Part shown: piece by piece, positions 29,810-40,723 of the stretch
How the letters are laid out: the number at the start of each line of letters is the position of its first letter
Numbering within the stretch: position 1 is the stretch's first letter
Origin: a bacterium
GTDB taxonomy: Bacteria > SAR324 > XYD2-FULL-50-16
Direction of reading: 5' to 3'
Assembly (NCBI GenBank): GCA_018829445.1
Contig: JAHJTV010000043.1
Coordinates: 1 to 64,000 of the forward strand
DNA: 64,000 bases
Program-made: the position numbers and the translations under genes
The notes under the pieces: generated by a model
Database searches by the model: none
The model's input: the letters and a program-made list of their open reading frames with translations, nothing else
What the model was told of the DNA's origin: nothing

Positions 29810-31033
29810 ATGGCAAAATCCAAGATTCCAAATATTTATCAATTACCCCAGGATATTATTGAAAGGATCGAAACAACATTAGCGGTATATTATGACAAAA
29901 CTCGAATTCACTCAATAGTTCTTGATAATCAAGGAGAGGTGGTGAGTGATTCTGGAACTCTTTGGATTTGTGATGGTTTCTACTGCAAACACACCGTCAA
30001 ATGTAAGGAAGAGCATCGTCTGGTTCTCAGGGAATCGTATCGCTTGGGCGGACCGTTTGTGCATCTGTGTCATAAGGATTTTGTAATCTGGGGAGTTTCT
30101 ATCACCCGGGATAACACTATCCTTGGAGGCGTTTTATCGGGATTTGTTCTTTTCGAGCAGCATCAGAATCTTCTGCAGGAGTATTTGTTTGAATTTCCGG
30201 GAATAAACAGGAAAGGAATGTTGATATCATCACAGACGGTTAATAGTGCATCCCAGATGTTGTTTACACTTTTCAAAAAAAACAATCTGTTTGATATTGA
30301 TCTGTTTAAAAAACTCGAAAACCGTGCGCATATTCAAAGAGAGATTGCAGAGAAGATAATCGAGAAAAAGAGCAAGGAGGAATACAGCCGTCATGTTATC
30401 TATCAAAAACAGAACAATTTAATCCAGGCCTTGCAGTTTCTGGAGGTGGAAAAAATCAGAAGTGGACTGAACGACGTATTAAGCGAGATTTTTCTGGAAG
30501 GGATAAACAATATCAGCCTATTGAAATTTCGTATGCTGGAATTGTTTGTCCTGATTTCCAGAACCATGTTGGAGATCGGTGGAAATATTGAAGAGTATTA
30601 TCATTTAACCAGCCAATATACAAAAAATACTGAGGATCTAGATGATATTTACTCATTTTCCCTGTGGTTGACAGCAATCTTAAACGATTTCATTGCAACA
30701 GTTACGACGACTCGCAAGAAGCTGGGAACTATCAATCGTGCCATCGATTATATTAAGAATAACCTGGACAAAAAACTGGTGTTGTCAGAAGTTGCACTGC
30801 TGGCTGCCATGTCAGAATCACGATTTTCTATTGCCTTCAAAATGGAGACTGGGCTCTCCTTTTCCGAATTTGTGAATATTACCAGGGTTGAGAACGCCAA
30901 GAAACTGATTCTGGAAAAGAAACTGACCTTTGTGGAGATAACAACCAAACTCGGTTTTTTCGATCAAAGTTACTTTACCAAGATTTTTAAAAAATATACC
31001 GGCAAGACTCCCCGACAATTTAGTACCTTATAA
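29810..31033 (+). CDS. PocR-sensor AraC-family transcriptional regulator
   Basis: 407 aa; PocR-like N-terminus (DSGTLWICDGFYCKHTVKCKEEHR...PFVHLCHKDFVIWGVSI) and C-terminal AraC HTH (FDQSYFTKIFKKYTGKTPRQF). Confidence 0.9.
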   Translation: MAKSKIPNIYQLPQDIIERIETTLAVYYDKTRIHSIVLDNQGEVVSDSGTLWICDGFYCKHTVKCKEEHRLVLRESYRLGGPFVHLCHKDFVIWGVSITRDNTILGGVLSGFVLFEQHQNLLQEYLFEFPGINRKGMLISSQTVNSASQMLFTLFKKNNLFDIDLFKKLENRAHIQREIAEKIIEKKSKEEYSRHVIYQKQNNLIQALQFLEVEKIRSGLNDVLSEIFLEGINNISLLKFRMLELFVLISRTMLEIGGNIEEYYHLTSQYTKNTEDLDDIYSFSLWLTAILNDFIATVTTTRKKLGTINRAIDYIKNNLDKKLVLSEVALLAAMSESRFSIAFKMETGLSFSEFVNITRVENAKKLILEKKLTFVEITTKLGFFDQSYFTKIFKKYTGKTPRQFSTL

Positions 31034-31307: not shown

Positions 31308-31940
31308 ATGGCATTACTACAAGAAATTTCGGAATATATCCAACAGGGTGATATGAATGAGGTCAGCAAACTCACCTCAATGGCCCTGCAACAGAATTTC
31401 AACCCCCAGGAAATCATAGATAATGGTCTTATCGTTGGAATGTCTGCTATTGGAGAGCGTTTTAAAAGAAATGAGGTCTTTGTTCCTGAGATGCTGATTG
31501 CCGCCAGAGCCATGAACAAAGCCCTCGAAATCCTTGAACCCAAAATGGTAAATGCCAAGATTAAAAAAACTGGAACTCTGGTAATCGGCACAGTTGAGGG
31601 CGATCTTCATGATATTGGAAAAAATCTGATTGGAATAATGTTCAAGGGCGCCGGTTTTAATGTTATCGACCTGGGGATTGATGTCTCTGCTGAACGTTTT
31701 CTGGAATCTGCCGTGGATCATAAAGCTGATTTTGTCGGAATTTCTGCGCTGCTCACTACTACCATGGTCAACATGGAGAAAACCATAAAGGAGCTGCGGG
31801 CTAACAACATAACAACCAAGGTCCTGGTAGGTGGTGCTCCCCTGACCGAGAAATTCGCTCATGAGATCGGAGCTGATGGCTACGCCCCGGATGCCGCTTC
31901 GGCAGTAGGTGTCGCCAAATCCTTGATGAATTCCCGTTAA
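31308..31940 (+). CDS. methyltransferase cognate corrinoid protein (B12-binding, MtbC/MttC-like)
   Basis: 210 aa; B12-binding-2 cap plus VEGDLHDIGKNLIGIMFKGAGFNVIDLG (DxHxxG) and GGAPLTEKFAHEIGADGYAPDA. Confidence 0.95.
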   Translation: MALLQEISEYIQQGDMNEVSKLTSMALQQNFNPQEIIDNGLIVGMSAIGERFKRNEVFVPEMLIAARAMNKALEILEPKMVNAKIKKTGTLVIGTVEGDLHDIGKNLIGIMFKGAGFNVIDLGIDVSAERFLESAVDHKADFVGISALLTTTMVNMEKTIKELRANNITTKVLVGGAPLTEKFAHEIGADGYAPDAASAVGVAKSLMNSR

Positions 31941-32116: not shown

Positions 32117-33397
32117 ATGCAAAAAGATCCTGAGAACTCGAAACGATACGCTTATTATGTTTTTGGCCTGCTATTCCTGCTGTATATGTTTGATTACATC
32201 GACCGATTGGTGGTTGTTTCCCTCTTTCCCTATATTAAAGAGGATTGGGGGTTAACAGATGCCCAATGCGGCATGTTTGTTTCAACCGTTTACTGGTCCA
32301 TTTTAATCCTGTCGCTTCCCGCCTCTATCCTGGTGGATCGGTGGAGTCGTAGAAAAAGCATTGGAATCATGTCAGTGCTTTGGAGTGTTGCCGCGGTTTC
32401 CTGTGCGTTTACCAACAATTTCAAACAATTGTTCATTGCCAGAACAGCTATCGGTGTCGGTGAAGCCGGATACGCTCCCGGTGGTACCGCTTTGATTTCG
32501 ACCCTGTTTCCTGAAAAGAATCGTGCCAGAATGCTGGGGTTGTGGAATGCCTCCATTCCCTTGGGTAGCGCCCTGGGAATCGGGTTGGGAGCGTTTATTG
32601 CGGAACGATACGGCTGGCGTCATGCGTTTGGTATTATTGCATTGCCCGGTTTACTGGTAGCAATCCTGTTCTTTTTTATCAAAGATTATAAAACCATAGA
32701 ACTCACTAGAAAGGCTGTGGATATAGGGAGCGATCAAACGGTAAAAATGAATGTGCCCGATATCGCCAGACATTTTTTAACAAACAAGACACTAATCTTT
32801 AACAACCTTGCATTTGCTGCCAGTGTATTTTTAACGACGGCGATGATGACCTGGTTACCGACCTATTTTCACAGGGTAAACAATGTACCCATGACGGAAG
32901 CGGGCATCAAAGGTGGCGCCGTGATGTTATTGGCAATCGTGGGAGCGCCTTTAGGAGGATACCTGGCTGACAAGTGGTATGTCCGAAGGAAAACCGCCCG
33001 TCTTATCTTCCCTGCGCTGACCTCATTCTCATCTGCAATTTTCCTTTTTATCGCCTTCACTTTTTTTAAGGGCAATCTGCAATTCACCATCCTGATTTTA
33101 AATGGTATTTTAATTGTCGGGTTCGTTCCGGCTGCTGTCGCTGTCACTCAAGACGTTGTTCATCCGGGATTGAGAGCTGTTTCCCTAAGTCTGAATGTGA
33201 TTATTCAACATATTCTGGGGAGTTCCACCGCGCCGATCGTAATTGGAGCGTTATCAGATGCCTATGGCATCGAAACCGCCATGATATTCCTGCCCATCGC
33301 CCCCGTAATAGCAGGAACTCTCTATTTAATTGCTTCCCGGTTTTACCTGGCAGATCTGAACAGGGTGCAAAATGAGATCAGCCATTTGGCCAATTAA
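32117..33397 (+). CDS. MFS transporter
   Basis: 426 aa; 12 TM pattern, DRWSRRKSIGIMSVLWS loop and ARTAIGVGEAGYAPGG. Confidence 0.92.
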   Translation: MQKDPENSKRYAYYVFGLLFLLYMFDYIDRLVVVSLFPYIKEDWGLTDAQCGMFVSTVYWSILILSLPASILVDRWSRRKSIGIMSVLWSVAAVSCAFTNNFKQLFIARTAIGVGEAGYAPGGTALISTLFPEKNRARMLGLWNASIPLGSALGIGLGAFIAERYGWRHAFGIIALPGLLVAILFFFIKDYKTIELTRKAVDIGSDQTVKMNVPDIARHFLTNKTLIFNNLAFAASVFLTTAMMTWLPTYFHRVNNVPMTEAGIKGGAVMLLAIVGAPLGGYLADKWYVRRKTARLIFPALTSFSSAIFLFIAFTFFKGNLQFTILILNGILIVGFVPAAVAVTQDVVHPGLRAVSLSLNVIIQHILGSSTAPIVIGALSDAYGIETAMIFLPIAPVIAGTLYLIASRFYLADLNRVQNEISHLAN

Positions 33398-33429: not shown

Positions 33430-35052
33430 ATGGAAGGAAAAGAACTGATAAAAGCGGCAATTGCTCTTAAGAAAACCGAGCGTGTTCCCTGGGTACCTTT
33501 TGTAGGATGTCATGGCGGATCACTGATTGGAGTTAACGCCACCGATTATCTAAAGTCGGAAAAACATATTATTCAGGGCACAGAAGAAGCAATTAAACGT
33601 TACCAACCGGATGGAATTCCCATCGTTTTTGATCTGCAAATTGAAGCTGAGATCTTGGGGTGTGACTTGCTCTGGGCGGATGAAAATCCTCCGGCGGTAT
33701 CCAGTCATCCCCTGGCCAATGGGAAGCTTTTGGCAGATCTAAAGATCCCTCAGTCTTCAGATGGTCGCTTGCCGATAGTTCTTAATGCAACCCGGGTTTT
33801 AAGGAAGCGCTACCCGGATTTGGCGCTTTATGGATTGATCACGGGGCCTTTCACTCTGGCACTTCATTTGTGCGGGTCCGATATATTTATGCAGTTGTAT
33901 CAGGATGAACAGGGAGTAAAAGAGGTCCTTGAATTCTGCAAACAGGTCTGCCTCGCCATGTCGGAATACTACATAGATGCTGGATGCGACATCATTGCCG
34001 TTGTGGACCCCATGACCAGTCAAATCGGTCCAAAACACTTTAAGCAATTCATTACCGATCCGATGAAAGAGATTTTCGCATTTATAAAAGAGAAACAAAC
34101 GCTGAGTTCTTTTTTTGTCTGTGGCCATGCACAGCAAAACATTGAAGCCATGTGTGATTGCAATCCAGATAATATTTCGGTGGACGAGAATATACCCCTG
34201 GAATATGTCCGGGACATCTGTCTTGCAAGAAACATCAGTTTTGGGGGTAACCTGCAGTTAACCATGGTACTTCTCCTGGGAAACGAAAACGATGCCATGC
34301 TAAATGCCCAGGACTGTGTCAATTCCAGCGGCGGTAAAGGATTTATCCTTGCTCCCGGTTGTGACTTACCCTACTCTACTCCCCCGAAAAATATTCAGGC
34401 TGTTACTGAGTATCTTCGTGATCCCTACCAGCGGGAGGTTGCTCTCACAATTCAGGATCATGAAAAAGCTTCGGATAGCCTTGACATGAGCGAATATGGG
34501 AAAACGGATAAGATCATCATTGATATTATCACCCTGGATTCCGAATCTTGTGCGCCTTGTCAATACATGGTCGAATCGGTACAACGGGTAATTCCTCAAT
34601 TCAAACACATTGTTGAGTGGCGGGAACATAAAATAAAATATCGTGAATCCCTTAAATTCATGGCTTCGTTAATGGTGAAGAATATACCAACCATCTGTAT
34701 TGACGGAAAAATTACGTTTGTCTCCCGTATCCCTCCCCAAGATGAACTCATTGCCGCCATTCAAAAACGGATATTTGAGAAATTAAATTATAAAATTAAG
34801 CTTAAAAAAGGCTCCTTACTGGTTTTCGGCAAAGATGCCAGTGAGTGTGAGAAAATCACGCCCAATGTAGAGCAGGCCATTAACGAATTAGGAGCCGATG
34901 TTAGTATCCAATATATAACGGATGAGAAAGAGATTCTGTCATACGGCATAGCTGTCACTCCAGCTGTTATGACGGCCAGATACAAGGTCAAATCCGAAGG
35001 AATCGTGCCTTCCATAACTGTTATCAAAGAATGGATCAAAGAAATTCACTAA
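33430..35052 (+). CDS. UroD/MtaA-family corrinoid methyltransferase fused to two C-terminal thioredoxin-like domains
   Basis: 540 aa; UroD-like (ERVPWVPFVGCHGGSLIGVNATDYL, GCDIIAVVDPMTSQIGPKHF, FILAPGCDLPYSTPPKNIQAV); then IITLDSESCAPCQYMVESVQRVIPQF (CxxC thioredoxin-like); then LLVFGKDASECEKITPNVEQAI...EILSYGIAVTPAVM. Confidence 0.85.
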   Translation: MEGKELIKAAIALKKTERVPWVPFVGCHGGSLIGVNATDYLKSEKHIIQGTEEAIKRYQPDGIPIVFDLQIEAEILGCDLLWADENPPAVSSHPLANGKLLADLKIPQSSDGRLPIVLNATRVLRKRYPDLALYGLITGPFTLALHLCGSDIFMQLYQDEQGVKEVLEFCKQVCLAMSEYYIDAGCDIIAVVDPMTSQIGPKHFKQFITDPMKEIFAFIKEKQTLSSFFVCGHAQQNIEAMCDCNPDNISVDENIPLEYVRDICLARNISFGGNLQLTMVLLLGNENDAMLNAQDCVNSSGGKGFILAPGCDLPYSTPPKNIQAVTEYLRDPYQREVALTIQDHEKASDSLDMSEYGKTDKIIIDIITLDSESCAPCQYMVESVQRVIPQFKHIVEWREHKIKYRESLKFMASLMVKNIPTICIDGKITFVSRIPPQDELIAAIQKRIFEKLNYKIKLKKGSLLVFGKDASECEKITPNVEQAINELGADVSIQYITDEKEILSYGIAVTPAVMTARYKVKSEGIVPSITVIKEWIKEIH

Positions 35053-35978
35053 ACAGTATCCCTTTCGTCTTGGTTACGGGATTCCTGGGAAGCGGGAAAA
35101 CAACTCTTCTGAAGCGTTTTCTGAATGCCCATGCGGATGAATGGAAAATAGCCGTCATTCAAAATGAGTTTGCCAACGCCAATGTTGATGGCCAGGAATT
35201 AAAAGAATCCGGGAAAACCTTTAAAATAGTAGAAATAAACAAAGGCTCGGTGTTTTGTGTCTGCCTGCTATCCAGCTTTGTTCACTCCCTGGCTGATCTG
35301 ATAGAATCATACCAACCGGATGTTATCATATTGGAAGCCACAGGTTTGGCCGATCCCATTGCAATCGGCCAACTTCTTTCAGCAAAAGAACTTAATGAAA
35401 AACTATACCTGGCCCATGTCTGGTGTGTTGTCGATTCAACCTCCTTCCTCGACTTGGAGCCCCGGGTTCAACGGATGACACATCAAGTACGAATCGCCGA
35501 CACAATTATTCTTAATAAAACAGACGTTGTATCACAGGAACATGTGACCAGAGTGGAAAAAAGAGTAGTCGAGGTAAACTCTCACGCCAATATAATTCGA
35601 GCACGTTTTTGTGAACTGCCTCATGGTATCTTAAATGAAGCGTTCATTCAAAGACCAGATGACAATAAAAATCGATCAAACACACAGGACATTAAACCCC
35701 ATGGTCCGCTATCGGTCTGTTCTGCCGTATTACGAACAACTGAGACTATTTCAAGGAGAAACCTGCAAAACTTTCTGCAACTGTATGAAAAAACCGCATA
35801 TCGTATCAAGGGATATGTCAATTTGACAGATCAAACAATAGTATCTGTACAATCCTGTTTTGGCCAAACTACCCTCCAAACCATCTTGAAAGAACCGGGT
35901 CCCACCGAATTGATCGCCTTGGGACCTCTGATTGACCCTCATGAATTCACAAGAGAGTTTAAAAAGATGACCAGATAA
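35031..35978 (+). CDS. CobW/UreG-type GTPase (metallochaperone-like)
   Basis: 315 aa; VTGFLGSGKTTLLKRFL Walker A, GSVFCVC (CxCC-like), NKTD; overlaps the upstream ORF by 22 bp. Confidence 0.93.
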   Translation: MDQRNSLNSIPFVLVTGFLGSGKTTLLKRFLNAHADEWKIAVIQNEFANANVDGQELKESGKTFKIVEINKGSVFCVCLLSSFVHSLADLIESYQPDVIILEATGLADPIAIGQLLSAKELNEKLYLAHVWCVVDSTSFLDLEPRVQRMTHQVRIADTIILNKTDVVSQEHVTRVEKRVVEVNSHANIIRARFCELPHGILNEAFIQRPDDNKNRSNTQDIKPHGPLSVCSAVLRTTETISRRNLQNFLQLYEKTAYRIKGYVNLTDQTIVSVQSCFGQTTLQTILKEPGPTELIALGPLIDPHEFTREFKKMTR

Positions 35979-36254
35979 AATTTATACTCGACTACAACTC
36001 TGAACTCCCTTCTTAATTCTGATAAAGTCATTTGATGACTCCCGGGAGGGATATTCCTGCCAAAACAAACTTTCCTTTTGGATACGCATAAGTTAATATT
36101 TTGAAGCACAAGAACAAGTGAATAAGAACAAGGTAAGTTTACTCAGCTTTTCTTAATATGAGCTGCTAAAAATATAGCAACTGCATATGTCTGGATATTG
36201 GGCTTGAACCCGGCACAGGTATTATTCAATTTTTTTTGTAGACTGAAGAAGCTT

Positions 36255-38585
36255 ATGATTCTTTCAACCCGTTTTCAGCGCATCAAAAACGAACTGCTTT
36301 CATACCCCATTCACCTCTGTATTGAAAGGGCTCGGTTGGTTACAGAGTATTTCAAACAGTTCGATAATGCCAACGAACCTATGGTGATAAGGAAAGCCAA
36401 AGCATTCCGTCATTTAATGCGAAAGAAGTCGATCAAAATCTATCCGGACGAGCTCATAGTCGGTAATATTGGCAAATACAGGAAATCAGCCATCATGCAA
36501 CCGGAGTTGTCCGGTGTATTTTCCTGTCAGGAGCTGCTTTGGATCGATAAACGCAAAACCACACCATTTAAAATCTCCTGGGGAGATCGCCTGAAATTGC
36601 TCAAAGGGGTCATTCCCTACTGGCTTCCCCGTAATATGATCATCCGCGCTTTCTGGCCCGATCTGAAACACTTAAGTCAATACATTGTCGATCAACTAAA
36701 TCCCAATTATTACCTGATAAACGAGGTTGCCGGAATCGGACATTTTATCCCCCATTATGAAAAGGCAATAAAAATAGGGCTTAAAGGTTATCTTGAACAA
36801 CTGAAAAATGGTAAAACCGATCTATTCCGGGCAATGGCGATTACAGCCGAAGCGGTTATCGACTATTCCAATCGTATGTCCTGCGAAATAGAACGATTGG
36901 TACAATTGGAAACCGACAAAAAGCGATCACAGGAACTGGTTTCCCTGGCAGAGATCTGCAAAAAGGTGCCCGAAAATCCGGCTGAAACCTTCCATGAAGC
37001 CCTGCAGGCACTTTGGATCTGCCACATGGCAGTCTGCCTGGAAGGGGTAAACTCAGCAGTTTCCTTCGGTCGACTGGATCAAATCCTATACCCCTATTAC
37101 AAAAAAGATCTGGAAACAGGCAGAATAACACCGCAACAGGCAAAGAAACTGCTGCTCTGCTTTTCCGCAAAAACAACCGAGCATGTATTCCTGATCTCCG
37201 AAAAAATGAGTAAATACCACGGAGGTTTCCTGGTTGCCCAGGCTGCCATTGTCGGGGGAATAGACAGTAGGGGAGAAAATGCCGTTAATGACCTCTCCTG
37301 GATCTTGCTTGACGTGATGGAAGAGTCGGGATTGAGAGATCCCAACTATCAGGTCAGGATTCACAAGAACACCCCCAGTGAATTTATACGACGGGCATTG
37401 GATGTTGCCAGGAAGGGAACAGGGTCGCCTGCCTTCTTTTGTGACGAGGCAACCGTCTCCTCTTTAACAGCACACGGGTATAGTGAAGAGGAAGCGAATA
37501 CCTATGGCATTGTCGGCTGTGTTGAACCCACCATACCCAGCAGAAGTTTTTGCTCCACTGATGCGGCACTGGTTAATCTGCCGGTTTGTCTTGAACTGGC
37601 TTTAAACCAGGGAAAACGGATTAACGGCAGAAAACAGATTGGTATAAACACCAGAAATCCTGGGTTGTTTCATGACATGGAAGATGTAATCACCGCTTTC
37701 GAAAAACAGGTTAGCCACTTGGTAAAAAGGCTGATAAGAGATATCCAGGTGATCGAAAAGGGCAATCGAAACTATCATCCCACTCCGTTCTCCTCCATGC
37801 TGGTAGATGGCTGTATTGAGAACAATAAAGATATTACTGCCGGCGGTGCCCAGTATAACTCAAGTGGGATACAGGGAGTTGGAGTGGCTGATGTCTCGGA
37901 TTCGCTGGCGGCCATTGAGGAAGTAGTGTTTCAAAATAAGCGGTTTTCCCTCAAAGAGATTATCGATGCCTTGAAAACAAACTTTGATCAGAACGAGCCC
38001 CTCCGGTCTTACCTGGTCAAAGCCACCAAATTCGGAAACGATCACGGTTCTGTAGACAGATTTGCAGAAAGGACAATGTGCATATTTCATGCGGCACTGG
38101 GAAACCATCAAAACTCCAGAGGAGGCCCTTATATTCCCGGGTTTTATTCGTCAACTTGTCATGTGGGATTCGGTGAACAGACAGCGGCGCTACCCAGCGG
38201 AAGGAAAGCCGGCCAGCCTTTTGCTGCCAGTATGAGCGCCGGCAATGGAATGGATCGTTCCGGTCCAACCGCTGTTTTGAATTCTGTGGCGTCAACCGAC
38301 CCCAGATTATCACCCAACGGGTACGCCCTTAATTTGAGTTTCGATCCCCATACTCTCAAAGGGGAGAAGGGAGTGATGATTCTGGATTCCCTGCTTCGCG
38401 GATATTTTGAAAAAGGAGGCATGGAACTTCAACTGAATGTACTGGATCATCAGGTTCTCGAAGACGCCTTGAATAATCCCGGTAAACACCCCGGGATCGT
38501 GGTGCGGGTGGCAGGCTATTGCGCCTTTTTTGACGACCTACCCCACGAAGTAAAAAAAGAGGTTATCAACCGCAACAGAACCTAA
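36255..38585 (+). CDS. glycyl radical enzyme (PFL-like family, eliminase/decarboxylase type, substrate unassigned)
   Basis: Active-site GIVGCVEPTIPSRSFCSTDAAL and C-terminal glycyl-radical loop VVRVAGYCAFFDDLPHEVKKEVINR. Internal ATG 36255 preferred over the track's 36198. Confidence 0.93.
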   Translation: MILSTRFQRIKNELLSYPIHLCIERARLVTEYFKQFDNANEPMVIRKAKAFRHLMRKKSIKIYPDELIVGNIGKYRKSAIMQPELSGVFSCQELLWIDKRKTTPFKISWGDRLKLLKGVIPYWLPRNMIIRAFWPDLKHLSQYIVDQLNPNYYLINEVAGIGHFIPHYEKAIKIGLKGYLEQLKNGKTDLFRAMAITAEAVIDYSNRMSCEIERLVQLETDKKRSQELVSLAEICKKVPENPAETFHEALQALWICHMAVCLEGVNSAVSFGRLDQILYPYYKKDLETGRITPQQAKKLLLCFSAKTTEHVFLISEKMSKYHGGFLVAQAAIVGGIDSRGENAVNDLSWILLDVMEESGLRDPNYQVRIHKNTPSEFIRRALDVARKGTGSPAFFCDEATVSSLTAHGYSEEEANTYGIVGCVEPTIPSRSFCSTDAALVNLPVCLELALNQGKRINGRKQIGINTRNPGLFHDMEDVITAFEKQVSHLVKRLIRDIQVIEKGNRNYHPTPFSSMLVDGCIENNKDITAGGAQYNSSGIQGVGVADVSDSLAAIEEVVFQNKRFSLKEIIDALKTNFDQNEPLRSYLVKATKFGNDHGSVDRFAERTMCIFHAALGNHQNSRGGPYIPGFYSSTCHVGFGEQTAALPSGRKAGQPFAASMSAGNGMDRSGPTAVLNSVASTDPRLSPNGYALNLSFDPHTLKGEKGVMILDSLLRGYFEKGGMELQLNVLDHQVLEDALNNPGKHPGIVVRVAGYCAFFDDLPHEVKKEVINRNRT

Positions 38586-38648
38586 GGGGTCAAGTCTCGT
38601 TTTGTTGCAACTTAGAGAGTTGCAACAAAACGAGACTTGACCCCTTAG
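38582..38648. repeat. perfect 31-bp inverted repeat (long hairpin) between GRE gene and radical SAM gene
   Basis: CTAAGGGGTCAAGTCTCGTTTTGTTGCAACT-TAGAG-AGTTGCAACAAAACGAGACTTGACCCCTTAG; contains the GRE stop codon (38583-38585). Confidence 0.95.
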
Positions 38649-38666
38649 CTTAGCATAAGGATATTT

Positions 38667-39584
38667 ATGGCGGCATTCGAACCGGTTTATCTGGAAACCA
38701 AAAGGAAGGGTTTATTGAGGGAAAAAATAAACAAAGCTCGGGCTTTGTTAAAATCGTGCACAATCTGTCCGCGGGAGTGTGAAGTAGACCGTCTTGCGGG
38801 AGAGGTGGGAGAATGTAATACAGGGGAGGATGCGTGGTTATCCAGTTTTAATTCCCACTTTGGGGAGGAACCTCCCCTGGTGGGAATGTTCGGTTCGGGT
38901 ACCATCTTTTTTACTCATTGCAATCTAAAATGTAATTTCTGCCAAAACTACGACATAAGCCATGATGGAAATGGAGCAGAGGTAGGCATGGCCCAGCTGG
39001 CAACTACGATGATGATTCTTCAGAACAACGGTTGTCACAACATCAATTTTGTCACTCCCACCCATGTGGTTCCACAGATATTGGCAGCCCTGGACATGGC
39101 AATTGAGATTGGTCTATGCGTTCCTCTAGTATACAACTCCAGTGGTTATGACAAAGTGGAAACCCTTCAGCTGTTGGATGGTGTCATTGATATCTACATG
39201 CCGGATTTTAAATTCTGGGATGCCGGAATTGCCGAATTGACCTGTCATGCTCCTGATTACCCGGAAGTAGCTCGAAACGCCCTTGTTGAGATGCATCGGC
39301 AGGTCGGGGATCTTCAGTTTGATGAAAACGGAATAGCCCAAAAAGGGTTGCTGGTGCGTCACTTGGTGATGCCATCCGGGGCTGCGGGAACCAAGGACGT
39401 TATGAAATTTATTGCAGAGAAAATTTCGCCCAACACCTATGTCAATGTTATGGATCAATATCGACCCTGTGGTAAAGCCTATCATGTGGAGCAACTGTCG
39501 AGTTCTCTTTCAAGACAGGAGTTTAAACAGGCAGTCAAGGAGGCAAAACAAGCCGGTATCTCTCGGTTTGCTGTGCCCTTGTAA
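38667..39584 (+). CDS. radical SAM protein, PflX-like (putative GRE-activating-enzyme-like family)
   Basis: 305 aa; CTICPRECEVDRLAGEVGEC N-terminal cysteines; GSGTIFFTHCNLKCNFCQN (CxxxCxxC); NSSGYDKVETLQLLDGVIDIYMPDFKF. Confidence 0.9.
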   Translation: MAAFEPVYLETKRKGLLREKINKARALLKSCTICPRECEVDRLAGEVGECNTGEDAWLSSFNSHFGEEPPLVGMFGSGTIFFTHCNLKCNFCQNYDISHDGNGAEVGMAQLATTMMILQNNGCHNINFVTPTHVVPQILAALDMAIEIGLCVPLVYNSSGYDKVETLQLLDGVIDIYMPDFKFWDAGIAELTCHAPDYPEVARNALVEMHRQVGDLQFDENGIAQKGLLVRHLVMPSGAAGTKDVMKFIAEKISPNTYVNVMDQYRPCGKAYHVEQLSSSLSRQEFKQAVKEAKQAGISRFAVPL

Positions 39585-39610
39585 AAACGTATAATATTAA
39601 AAGGATCTAA

Positions 39611-40723
39611 ATGAAGATATCCCCTTTCAAACTGGAACGATATTTTGCAAAATACGAATTCAACGCTCCCCACCTACTCTGTTGTTCGGACTGTGAATCG
39701 ATGTCCATCGGCGACCTGCTGAAACTGGGTCAGGTATCGGAAGCAACTCTGAGTAATGTCTGGTTAGGATATACCGAATCACAAGGTGATCCCGCTTTGC
39801 GTGAAGAGATAGCCCAGCTGTACAGTGGGGTGAATCCGGAACAGGTTCTGGTTCATTCCGGTGCTGAGGAACCAATTTTTAATTTCATGAACGCTATTTT
39901 GGAACCAGGCGATCATGTAATTGTGCTCTATCCCTGTTACCAATCATTAACCGAAATTGCAGAATCGATTGGTTGTGAAGTTACTTATTGGAAACTGGAG
40001 AATTGTCCGGACTGGAAGGTGGATTTTGATATTTTCAAGGATCAGATCAGGCCAAATACCAAGCTGGTTATTGTGAATACACCCCATAACCCCACGGGAT
40101 TCCAGTTTACAAAAGAGGAGTTTAAAACTCTTTCCGATCTTTCCAATGAGCATGGTTTTTTTATCTTTTCCGATGAGGTCTACCGCTATCTGGAGTATGA
40201 TGAAAATGACCGGTTGCCTTCAATCTGCGATATTAATGAAAACGGGCTGGCCCTGGGAGTTATGTCCAAGACCTTTGGATTGGCCGGATTGAGAATCGGG
40301 TGGATTGCAACGCAAAACAAAGAGATCTACCATAAGCTGGCAGCTTACAAGGATTATACGACCATCTGCAACAGTGCCCCCAGTGAATTTCTGTCGACCC
40401 TTGCCCTTAAAAACAAAGAGAAACTCATCAAAAGAAACCTCGGCATTGTTAACAACAACCTCAGTTTGTTAAATCAGTTTTTTGATCAATACCAAGACCT
40501 GTTCAGGTGGAGCATGCCAAAAGCCGGGCCAATCGCATTCCCGGAACTCAGGCGGGGAGAAATCACCAAGTTCTGTCATGATCTGGTAACTAAAGCGGGG
40601 GTTCTTCTTTTGCCGGGAACCTTGTATGACAAGTCCAGCAACAACTTTAGAATCGGATTCGGCAGAACAACCATGGAGCAGTCTTTGAACAGGCTTGAGG
40701 AGTATTTGTCTGCAACCCTTTAA
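39611..40723 (+). CDS. PLP-dependent aminotransferase class I/II
   Basis: 370 aa; NTPHNPTGFQFTKEEF, SKTFGLAGLRIGW lysine motif, RIGFGR. Confidence 0.93.
   Translation: MKISPFKLERYFAKYEFNAPHLLCCSDCESMSIGDLLKLGQVSEATLSNVWLGYTESQGDPALREEIAQLYSGVNPEQVLVHSGAEEPIFNFMNAILEPGDHVIVLYPCYQSLTEIAESIGCEVTYWKLENCPDWKVDFDIFKDQIRPNTKLVIVNTPHNPTGFQFTKEEFKTLSDLSNEHGFFIFSDEVYRYLEYDENDRLPSICDINENGLALGVMSKTFGLAGLRIGWIATQNKEIYHKLAAYKDYTTICNSAPSEFLSTLALKNKEKLIKRNLGIVNNNLSLLNQFFDQYQDLFRWSMPKAGPIAFPELRRGEITKFCHDLVTKAGVLLLPGTLYDKSSNNFRIGFGRTTMEQSLNRLEEYLSATL

Follow-up and report, generated by a model that had tools for sequence, protein, structure and literature searches.

The closest described relatives of the system analysed here are the methyltransferases MtaA, MtbA and CmuA (TIGR01463; structure 4ay7), which consist of a UroD barrel with two zinc-site cysteines and work with a stand-alone corrinoid partner. 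A His-Cys-Cys triad is the usual soft-ligand site of S-methyltransferases in the UroD superfamily (PMC10418091). It is found in the separate Mlp proteins of the type 1 mlp clusters, in which UroD proteins are encoded with a corrinoid protein and Ram/RACE in anaerobes, mostly Firmicutes, and for which methyl-sulfur and methyl-selenium chemistry and methionine recycling were proposed by Kountz and Balskus in 2023 (PMC10418091). CdmB, a chloromethane methyltransferase, is a UroD-family MT-I that acts with a corrinoid protein, works without zinc and is haloalkane-specific, with a mainly aromatic cavity (PMC13222342). MetH combines a homocysteine domain, a cobalamin-binding part, an activation domain and a methyl-THF domain. 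In Ruegeria, a corrinoid protein and its partner methyltransferase (MtgC/MtgD) serve in the demethylation of glycine betaine as well as in methionine synthesis, an example of a donor other than methyl-THF being coupled to the latter (PMC12478193).

The window analysed was a stretch of 64,000 nucleotides from a SAR324 bacterium (GenBank assembly GCA_018829445.1, contig JAHJTV010000043.1). It encodes an uncommon combination, a UroD/MtaA-type barrel followed by two thioredoxin (Trx) domains in one polypeptide, and the genes stand in the order PocR/AraC regulator, corrinoid protein, MFS transporter, fusion and overlapping CobW (Table 1).

Table 1. Features of the fusion gene, its product and its neighbours in the window; residue counts refer to aligned fusions
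Feature	Position	Strand	Basis or remark
PocR-domain/AraC regulator	29810..31033	+	Pfam PocR, HTH_18
Stand-alone corrinoid protein, MtgC/MtbC type, DLHDIG cobalt-ligand motif	31308..31940	+	Pfam B12-binding, B12-binding_2
MFS transporter, between corrinoid gene and fusion	32117..33397	+	Pfam MFS_1
UroD-Trx-Trx fusion gene, 540 aa	33430..35052	+	intact ORF without internal stop
UroD/MtaA-type barrel, residues 1-330	33430..34419	+	Pfam URO-D, Foldseek
His28, candidate replacement metal ligand	33511..33513	+	80/80; opposite a Gly of the MtbA TQTG loop
F229-V-C231-G-H233, altered H-x-C-G motif	34114..34128	+	F 80/81, C231 81/81, H233 74/81
Cys311 (APGCDLP), second zinc-type Cys	34360..34362	+	80/81; UGA (probable Sec) here in the G009 homologue
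Trx domain 1, residues 361-458, CAPC dithiol, cis-Pro motif IPT	34510..34803	+	secondary structure; 1fo5/1nho profile match
CAPC motif, Cys374 and Cys377	34549..34560	+	C374 81/81, C377 80/81
Trx domain 2, residues 461-540, MTH895/ArsE type, degenerate active site A470..C473	34810..35049	+	TIGR00412; 1ilo profile match
CobW/COG0523 GTPase	35031..35978	+	Pfam cobW, E 1.7e-42; 22-nt overlap with fusion gene

The architecture, which the initial annotation had read as a UroD barrel with two tandem thioredoxin domains, was borne out by Pfam, NCBIfam, profiles of PDB structures and AlphaFold2. The barrel belongs to the UroD superfamily (PF01208) by domain and by fold: Pfam URO-D spans residues 4-330 (E 1e-59), and the best Foldseek match of the AlphaFold2 barrel was Methanosarcina mazei MtbA (4ay7/4ay8, TM 0.89-0.90 over the target). 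In profile searches against solved structures, the first thioredoxin domain matched 1fo5/1nho and the second matched 1ilo (MTH895). The first has the CxxC, the cis-Pro and the topology of the thioredoxin fold; the Pfam Thioredoxin match at residues 370-424 was weak (16.9 bits, below its cut-off), and the domain is nevertheless taken as a thioredoxin because the NCBIfam and PDB profile searches and AlphaFold2 agree on it. Membership in the HUIPC Trx-like (seleno)proteins (NF047660) was rejected, the score being 39.8 bits against a cut-off of 105. The second domain was matched at residues 465-537 by Pfam Thioredoxin_3 (E 3.6e-16) and by TIGR00412 (MTH895/ArsE Trx-like; 69.0 bits, curated cut-off 62); the corresponding domain of the fusion in a second genome of the genus scored 59.6 bits. 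AlphaFold2 predicted the thioredoxin folds that the initial annotation had put up for checking, with two thioredoxin-type sets of secondary structure and a mean pLDDT of 87 for the whole protein. Modelled alone, the thioredoxin pair reached pLDDT 85 and matched the tandem-thioredoxin protein 1a8l and PDI. The closest sequence relatives of the two domains are the MTH895/ArsE and MJ0307-type small thioredoxins (1ilo, 1fo5) and the HUIPC Trx selenoproteins, all of which are stand-alone proteins, unlike the fusion, whose second domain has in addition lost its first Cys. A true MTH895-type thioredoxin (GSGCAKC) is encoded elsewhere in the same genome (L097:5958-7985, minus strand) beside an ArsP permease and a DGC-domain protein, probably an (organo)arsenic locus.

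Relatives were collected with an alignment-based profile scan of species genomes, which returned 335 proteins; a single-protein query of contigs gave none. The best 80 of the 335 align with the fusion over the full or almost the full length at 55-72% identity and, by the names in the record titles, come from Bacteroidota, Planctomycetota, KSB1, Calditrichota, Fibrobacterota, Sumerlaeota, Lentisphaerota, Chlamydiota, Spirochaetota, Fidelibacterota and SAR324. The fusion was found in at least nine bacterial phyla, including the cultured Mariniphaga sediminis, M. anaerophila, Draconibacterium aestuarii and Planctomycetes bacterium CA13, which answers the earlier question about its spread. A sequencing frameshift, named at the outset as a possible artefact, is ruled out as its origin by these approximately 80 independent full-length homologues, isolates included. 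The fusion is rare, with relatives in 12 of 297 sampled Planctomycetota, 2 of 398 Bacteroidota and 3 of 52 genomes of the window's own phylum, the last count including an unfused relative. A second genome of the window's genus (G001, locus L014) has the same fusion at 72% identity; three full or partial copies were seen there (contigs C42, C62 and C24; 72%, 66% and 68% identity). No relative was found in the viral sequence collection. In a Sumerlaeota MAG (L022), codon 379 of the fusion, where the family has a conserved Tyr following CAPCQ, reads TAG in frame, which may be a sequencing error, a pseudogene or recoding; one further fusion (L087) is also interrupted. The family tree was read unrooted, as the outgroup branches are very long, and one row from the window's own genome (L002) is probably mistranslated.

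Conservation was counted in an alignment of 81 fusions. The barrel motifs kept throughout are P20-W-V-P-F-V-G26-x-H28, F67-D-L-Q70-x-E72-A-E74, V192-D-P-M-T-S-Q-I, S-F-F229-V-C231-G, F-G-G-N274 and A-P-G-C311-D-L-P; Cys231, Cys311, His28, Asp68, Gln70, Glu72 and Glu74 of the barrel and the thioredoxin CAPC are invariant across the homologues. When aligned to MtbA (4ay7), FFVCG stands opposite LHICG, so that the zinc His is replaced by Phe229 and both cysteines are kept. The altered HxCG motif remarked on in the initial annotation is therefore a property of the family, which has Phe-Cys-Cys for the His-Cys-Cys of MtaA/CmuA in 80 of 81 members. Together with the TIGR01463 scores (153.7 bits for the fusion and 154-166 for its relatives, cut-off 235.4), the altered triad rules out membership in the MtaA/CmuA subfamily. 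The metal site appears to be rearranged rather than lost, with His28 as a candidate ligand; zinc itself is uncertain, because the zinc His is gone. In the first thioredoxin domain, CAPC, the IPT cis-Pro motif, His400 and Cys423 are near-invariant. In the second, the first Cys has gone, and the single Cys noted before, Cys473, proved to be the second Cys of the ancestral CxxC; it is kept in 45 of 81 fusions and the full CxxC in 6 of 81, and the dithiol typical of TIGR00412 is A470/C473 in the window protein. This domain may be a structural or monothiol helper.

Partly fused and unfused forms were also seen. Nine of the 12 Planctomycetota matches are UroD proteins with one thioredoxin domain (45-49% identity), which lack the second domain and retain the first, with FVCG, APGC or SPGC, CAPC or CPPC and, where the stretch is covered, His28. 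In a SAR324 genome of the window's family (G009), the UroD protein is encoded by its own gene (FICG, 37-38% identity), and three small Trx-like proteins, CobW, a corrinoid protein and a weak Met_synt_B12-like protein are encoded separately. The G009 UroD gene (L007:1501-2478, minus strand) has an in-frame UGA exactly at the Cys311 position (APG-U-DLP), and one thioredoxin gene (L010:6896-7200, minus strand) has one at the first Cys (UAAC). Selenocysteine is likely at both codons, since the genome encodes SelB and a hairpin follows each UGA (z -1.8 and -2.9), which suggests that the barrel and thioredoxin sites are both reactive chalcogen sites. Position 28 of the G009 protein is Asn with a Cys beside it, so the idea of His28 as a ligand need not apply there. 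Because UroD, thioredoxin and CobW co-occur in fused, half-fused and unfused form, the link between UroD and thioredoxin looks functional rather than accidental.

Neighbours within 6 kb were counted at 38 loci, the window included, whose flanks both extend for 4 kb or more. CobW was present at 33 (on the same strand), a corrinoid protein at 25, a homocysteine S-methyltransferase (HcyMT) at 18, a Met_synt_B12-like protein at 12 and a PocR-type regulator at 10. For the corrinoid protein, about 0.3 neighbours would be expected by chance, a rough figure from 34 PF02607 matches in approximately 58 Mb. CobW was the only one nearby at 8 of the 38 loci, and none of these neighbours was present at 3. 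In a count over 80 loci, HcyMT was found at 36. The typical Bacteroidota operon has a divergent PocR gene followed by corrinoid protein, fusion, HcyMT and CobW, and in most of these operons the fusion is the sole UroD protein; further UroD proteins occur near the fusion in 20 loci, and a KSB1 locus (L016) holds the fusion, CobW, corrinoid protein, two extra UroD proteins, HcyMT and an activation protein together. The CobW motif is usually GCxCC. The window copy has GSVFCVC, and nearly all neighbouring copies have GS-x-FC-x-C, which points to a distinct, probably dedicated CobW subgroup; the window CobW is probably a dedicated metallochaperone.

The MFS transporter could be a substrate importer, its membership in the system being uncertain; it lies outside the conserved core, as a homologue is near the fusion in only 3 of 81 loci. 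Downstream in the window (36198-40723), a glycyl-radical enzyme below all equivalog cut-offs, a radical-SAM protein and an aminotransferase stand in a row; they were rejected as parts of the system, with homologues near the fusion at 1 of 38 loci, the window only. The succinate dehydrogenase genes that lie downstream of the fusion in Prolixibacteraceae seem to belong to an adjacent operon. Directly upstream of the fusion in Chlamydiota-type loci (L056, L063, L069) are genes for L-rhamnose isomerase, a UroD protein with an HSDG motif and a Bac_rhamnosid6H protein, and these may hint at methylated-sugar donors.

The remaining parts of a methyl-transfer route were found in the operon or elsewhere in the genome. 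The SAR324 HcyMT is 61% identical to that of Mariniphaga and adjoins the corrinoid activator RACo on another contig; RACo, which is not in the window cluster, was detected in 8 of 9 carriers and in 1 of 14 controls. An HcyMT, a cobalamin protein and an activation or reduction protein are thus present as in MetH, with the parts on separate genes. The conserved neighbours and the UroD-type proteins would correspond to MetH without its folate domain, UroD-type proteins taking the place of the methyl-THF domain. Full-length MetH was present in all six genomes checked, so methionine synthesis is independent of the system, which would be an additional methyl entry.

The fusion differs from MtaA, MtbA and CmuA in the Phe at the zinc His, the invariant His28, Gln70 and Glu72, the thioredoxin domains and a homocysteine methyltransferase, not one for coenzyme M, as partner; CdmB differs from it in having no thioredoxin. 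The core of the present system is UroD-Trx, CobW, corrinoid protein and HcyMT; type 1 mlp clusters are characterised by Mlp2 and Mlp3 with a corrinoid protein and Ram/RACE, and their description mentions no thioredoxin or CobW partner (PMC10418091). The open-access literature, searched with partial coverage, yielded no description of a UroD-Trx-Trx fusion, and the fusion, which is real and conserved, is an apparently undescribed variant of the UroD-family corrinoid methyltransferases.

From the observed architecture, conservation and neighbourhood we infer a direction of methyl flow, a metal, a thioredoxin chemistry and a donor class, and the resulting reading, in which our confidence and our doubt are about equal, is that the fusion works on the donor side, as an MT-I-type methyltransferase, in a split corrinoid route to methionine that does not depend on folate, with the dithiol of the first thioredoxin domain handling a sulfur, selenium or arsenic substrate. 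The barrel would bind the methylated substrate, whose soft heteroatom (S, Se or As) the CAPC dithiol would reduce, or keep as an adduct, so that it can be demethylated at the Cys231/Cys311 centre, the metal of which is probably loaded by CobW. The corrinoid protein encoded nearby would take up the methyl group at its Co(I), HcyMT would move it on to homocysteine, giving methionine, and the cobalt would be re-reduced by RACo or the Met_synt_B12-like protein. Of the initial reading as a redox-controlled or thiol-acceptor methyltransferase, membership in a corrinoid methyl-transfer system is supported, as is a thioredoxin link that looks functional; the final thiol acceptor is likely homocysteine, by way of the separate HcyMT, not thioredoxin or coenzyme M. 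It is possible, though doubtful, that the fused dithiol is an obligatory carrier of the methylated heteroatom that docks on a rearranged His28/Cys231/Cys311 site and, across many anaerobic phyla, supplies a split methionine synthase that works without folate, which would make a new class of corrinoid enzyme.

The thioredoxin domains could instead act without touching the substrate, as an electron relay that re-reduces the corrinoid or as a redox switch that keeps the barrel cysteines reduced. The strict conservation of CAPC would suit such a role, and so would the M. anaerophila genome, in which neither RACo nor a stand-alone activation protein was found; yet RACo is present in most carriers, the Met_synt_B12-like protein is adjacent at 12 of the 38 loci, and typical thioredoxin potentials lie far above that of Co(II)/Co(I), which leaves this role fairly unlikely. 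A thioredoxin Cys might also be the methyl acceptor, through a Trx-S-CH3 or Trx-Se-CH3 intermediate, with the barrel as an MtaA-like second methyltransferase. The barrel does resemble the thiol methylators MtaA and MtbA, and a fused thiol could replace coenzyme M, but the cluster already has an acceptor enzyme in HcyMT and a thioether on a CxxC thioredoxin would require a second demethylation; we consider this quite improbable.

Salvage of selenium, in which methyl-selenides are demethylated for selenoprotein synthesis as proposed for the type 1 mlp clusters, would draw on the same broad classes of parts (UroD, corrinoid protein, activator), and selenide is a substrate of ClMlp2 in vitro, while growth-independent of that result the use of dimethyl selenide requires sdmC (PMC10418091). 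The SAR324 carriers have SelB and SelD. However, SelD was below cut-off in 4 of 9 carriers (both Mariniphaga, Planctomycetes CA13 and G190) in which the fusion is conserved, SelB fell short of its cut-off in the two carriers from outside SAR324 that were checked, M. anaerophila and CA13, and type 1 Mlps retain the His-Cys-Cys that the fusion family does not have. Selenium salvage is improbable, and as a general role it is disfavoured by the carriers without SelD. The window genome itself has two SelD genes, each with an in-frame TGA (G000:C80:83531-84457 and G000:C84:35377-36300), probably encoding SelD as a selenoprotein. That the barrel is a decarboxylase or a scaffold, with the methyl-transfer neighbours serving other UroD proteins, is very improbable: Asp68 is aligned with the Asp of the FSDIL motif, which is catalytic in UroD proper, the zinc His is lost and other UroD proteins are nearby in 20 loci, but both cysteines of the methyltransferase site are invariant and most Bacteroidota operons offer no other UroD protein.

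Read as a donor-side methyltransferase, the fusion brings thiol-redox domains and B12-dependent methyl transfer together in one module, conserved among bacteria most of which are uncultured. It points to an unrecognised source of the methionine methyl group, perhaps a methylated compound of sulfur, selenium or arsenic, and the cultured carriers Mariniphaga, Draconibacterium and Planctomycetes CA13 make the system open to experiment.
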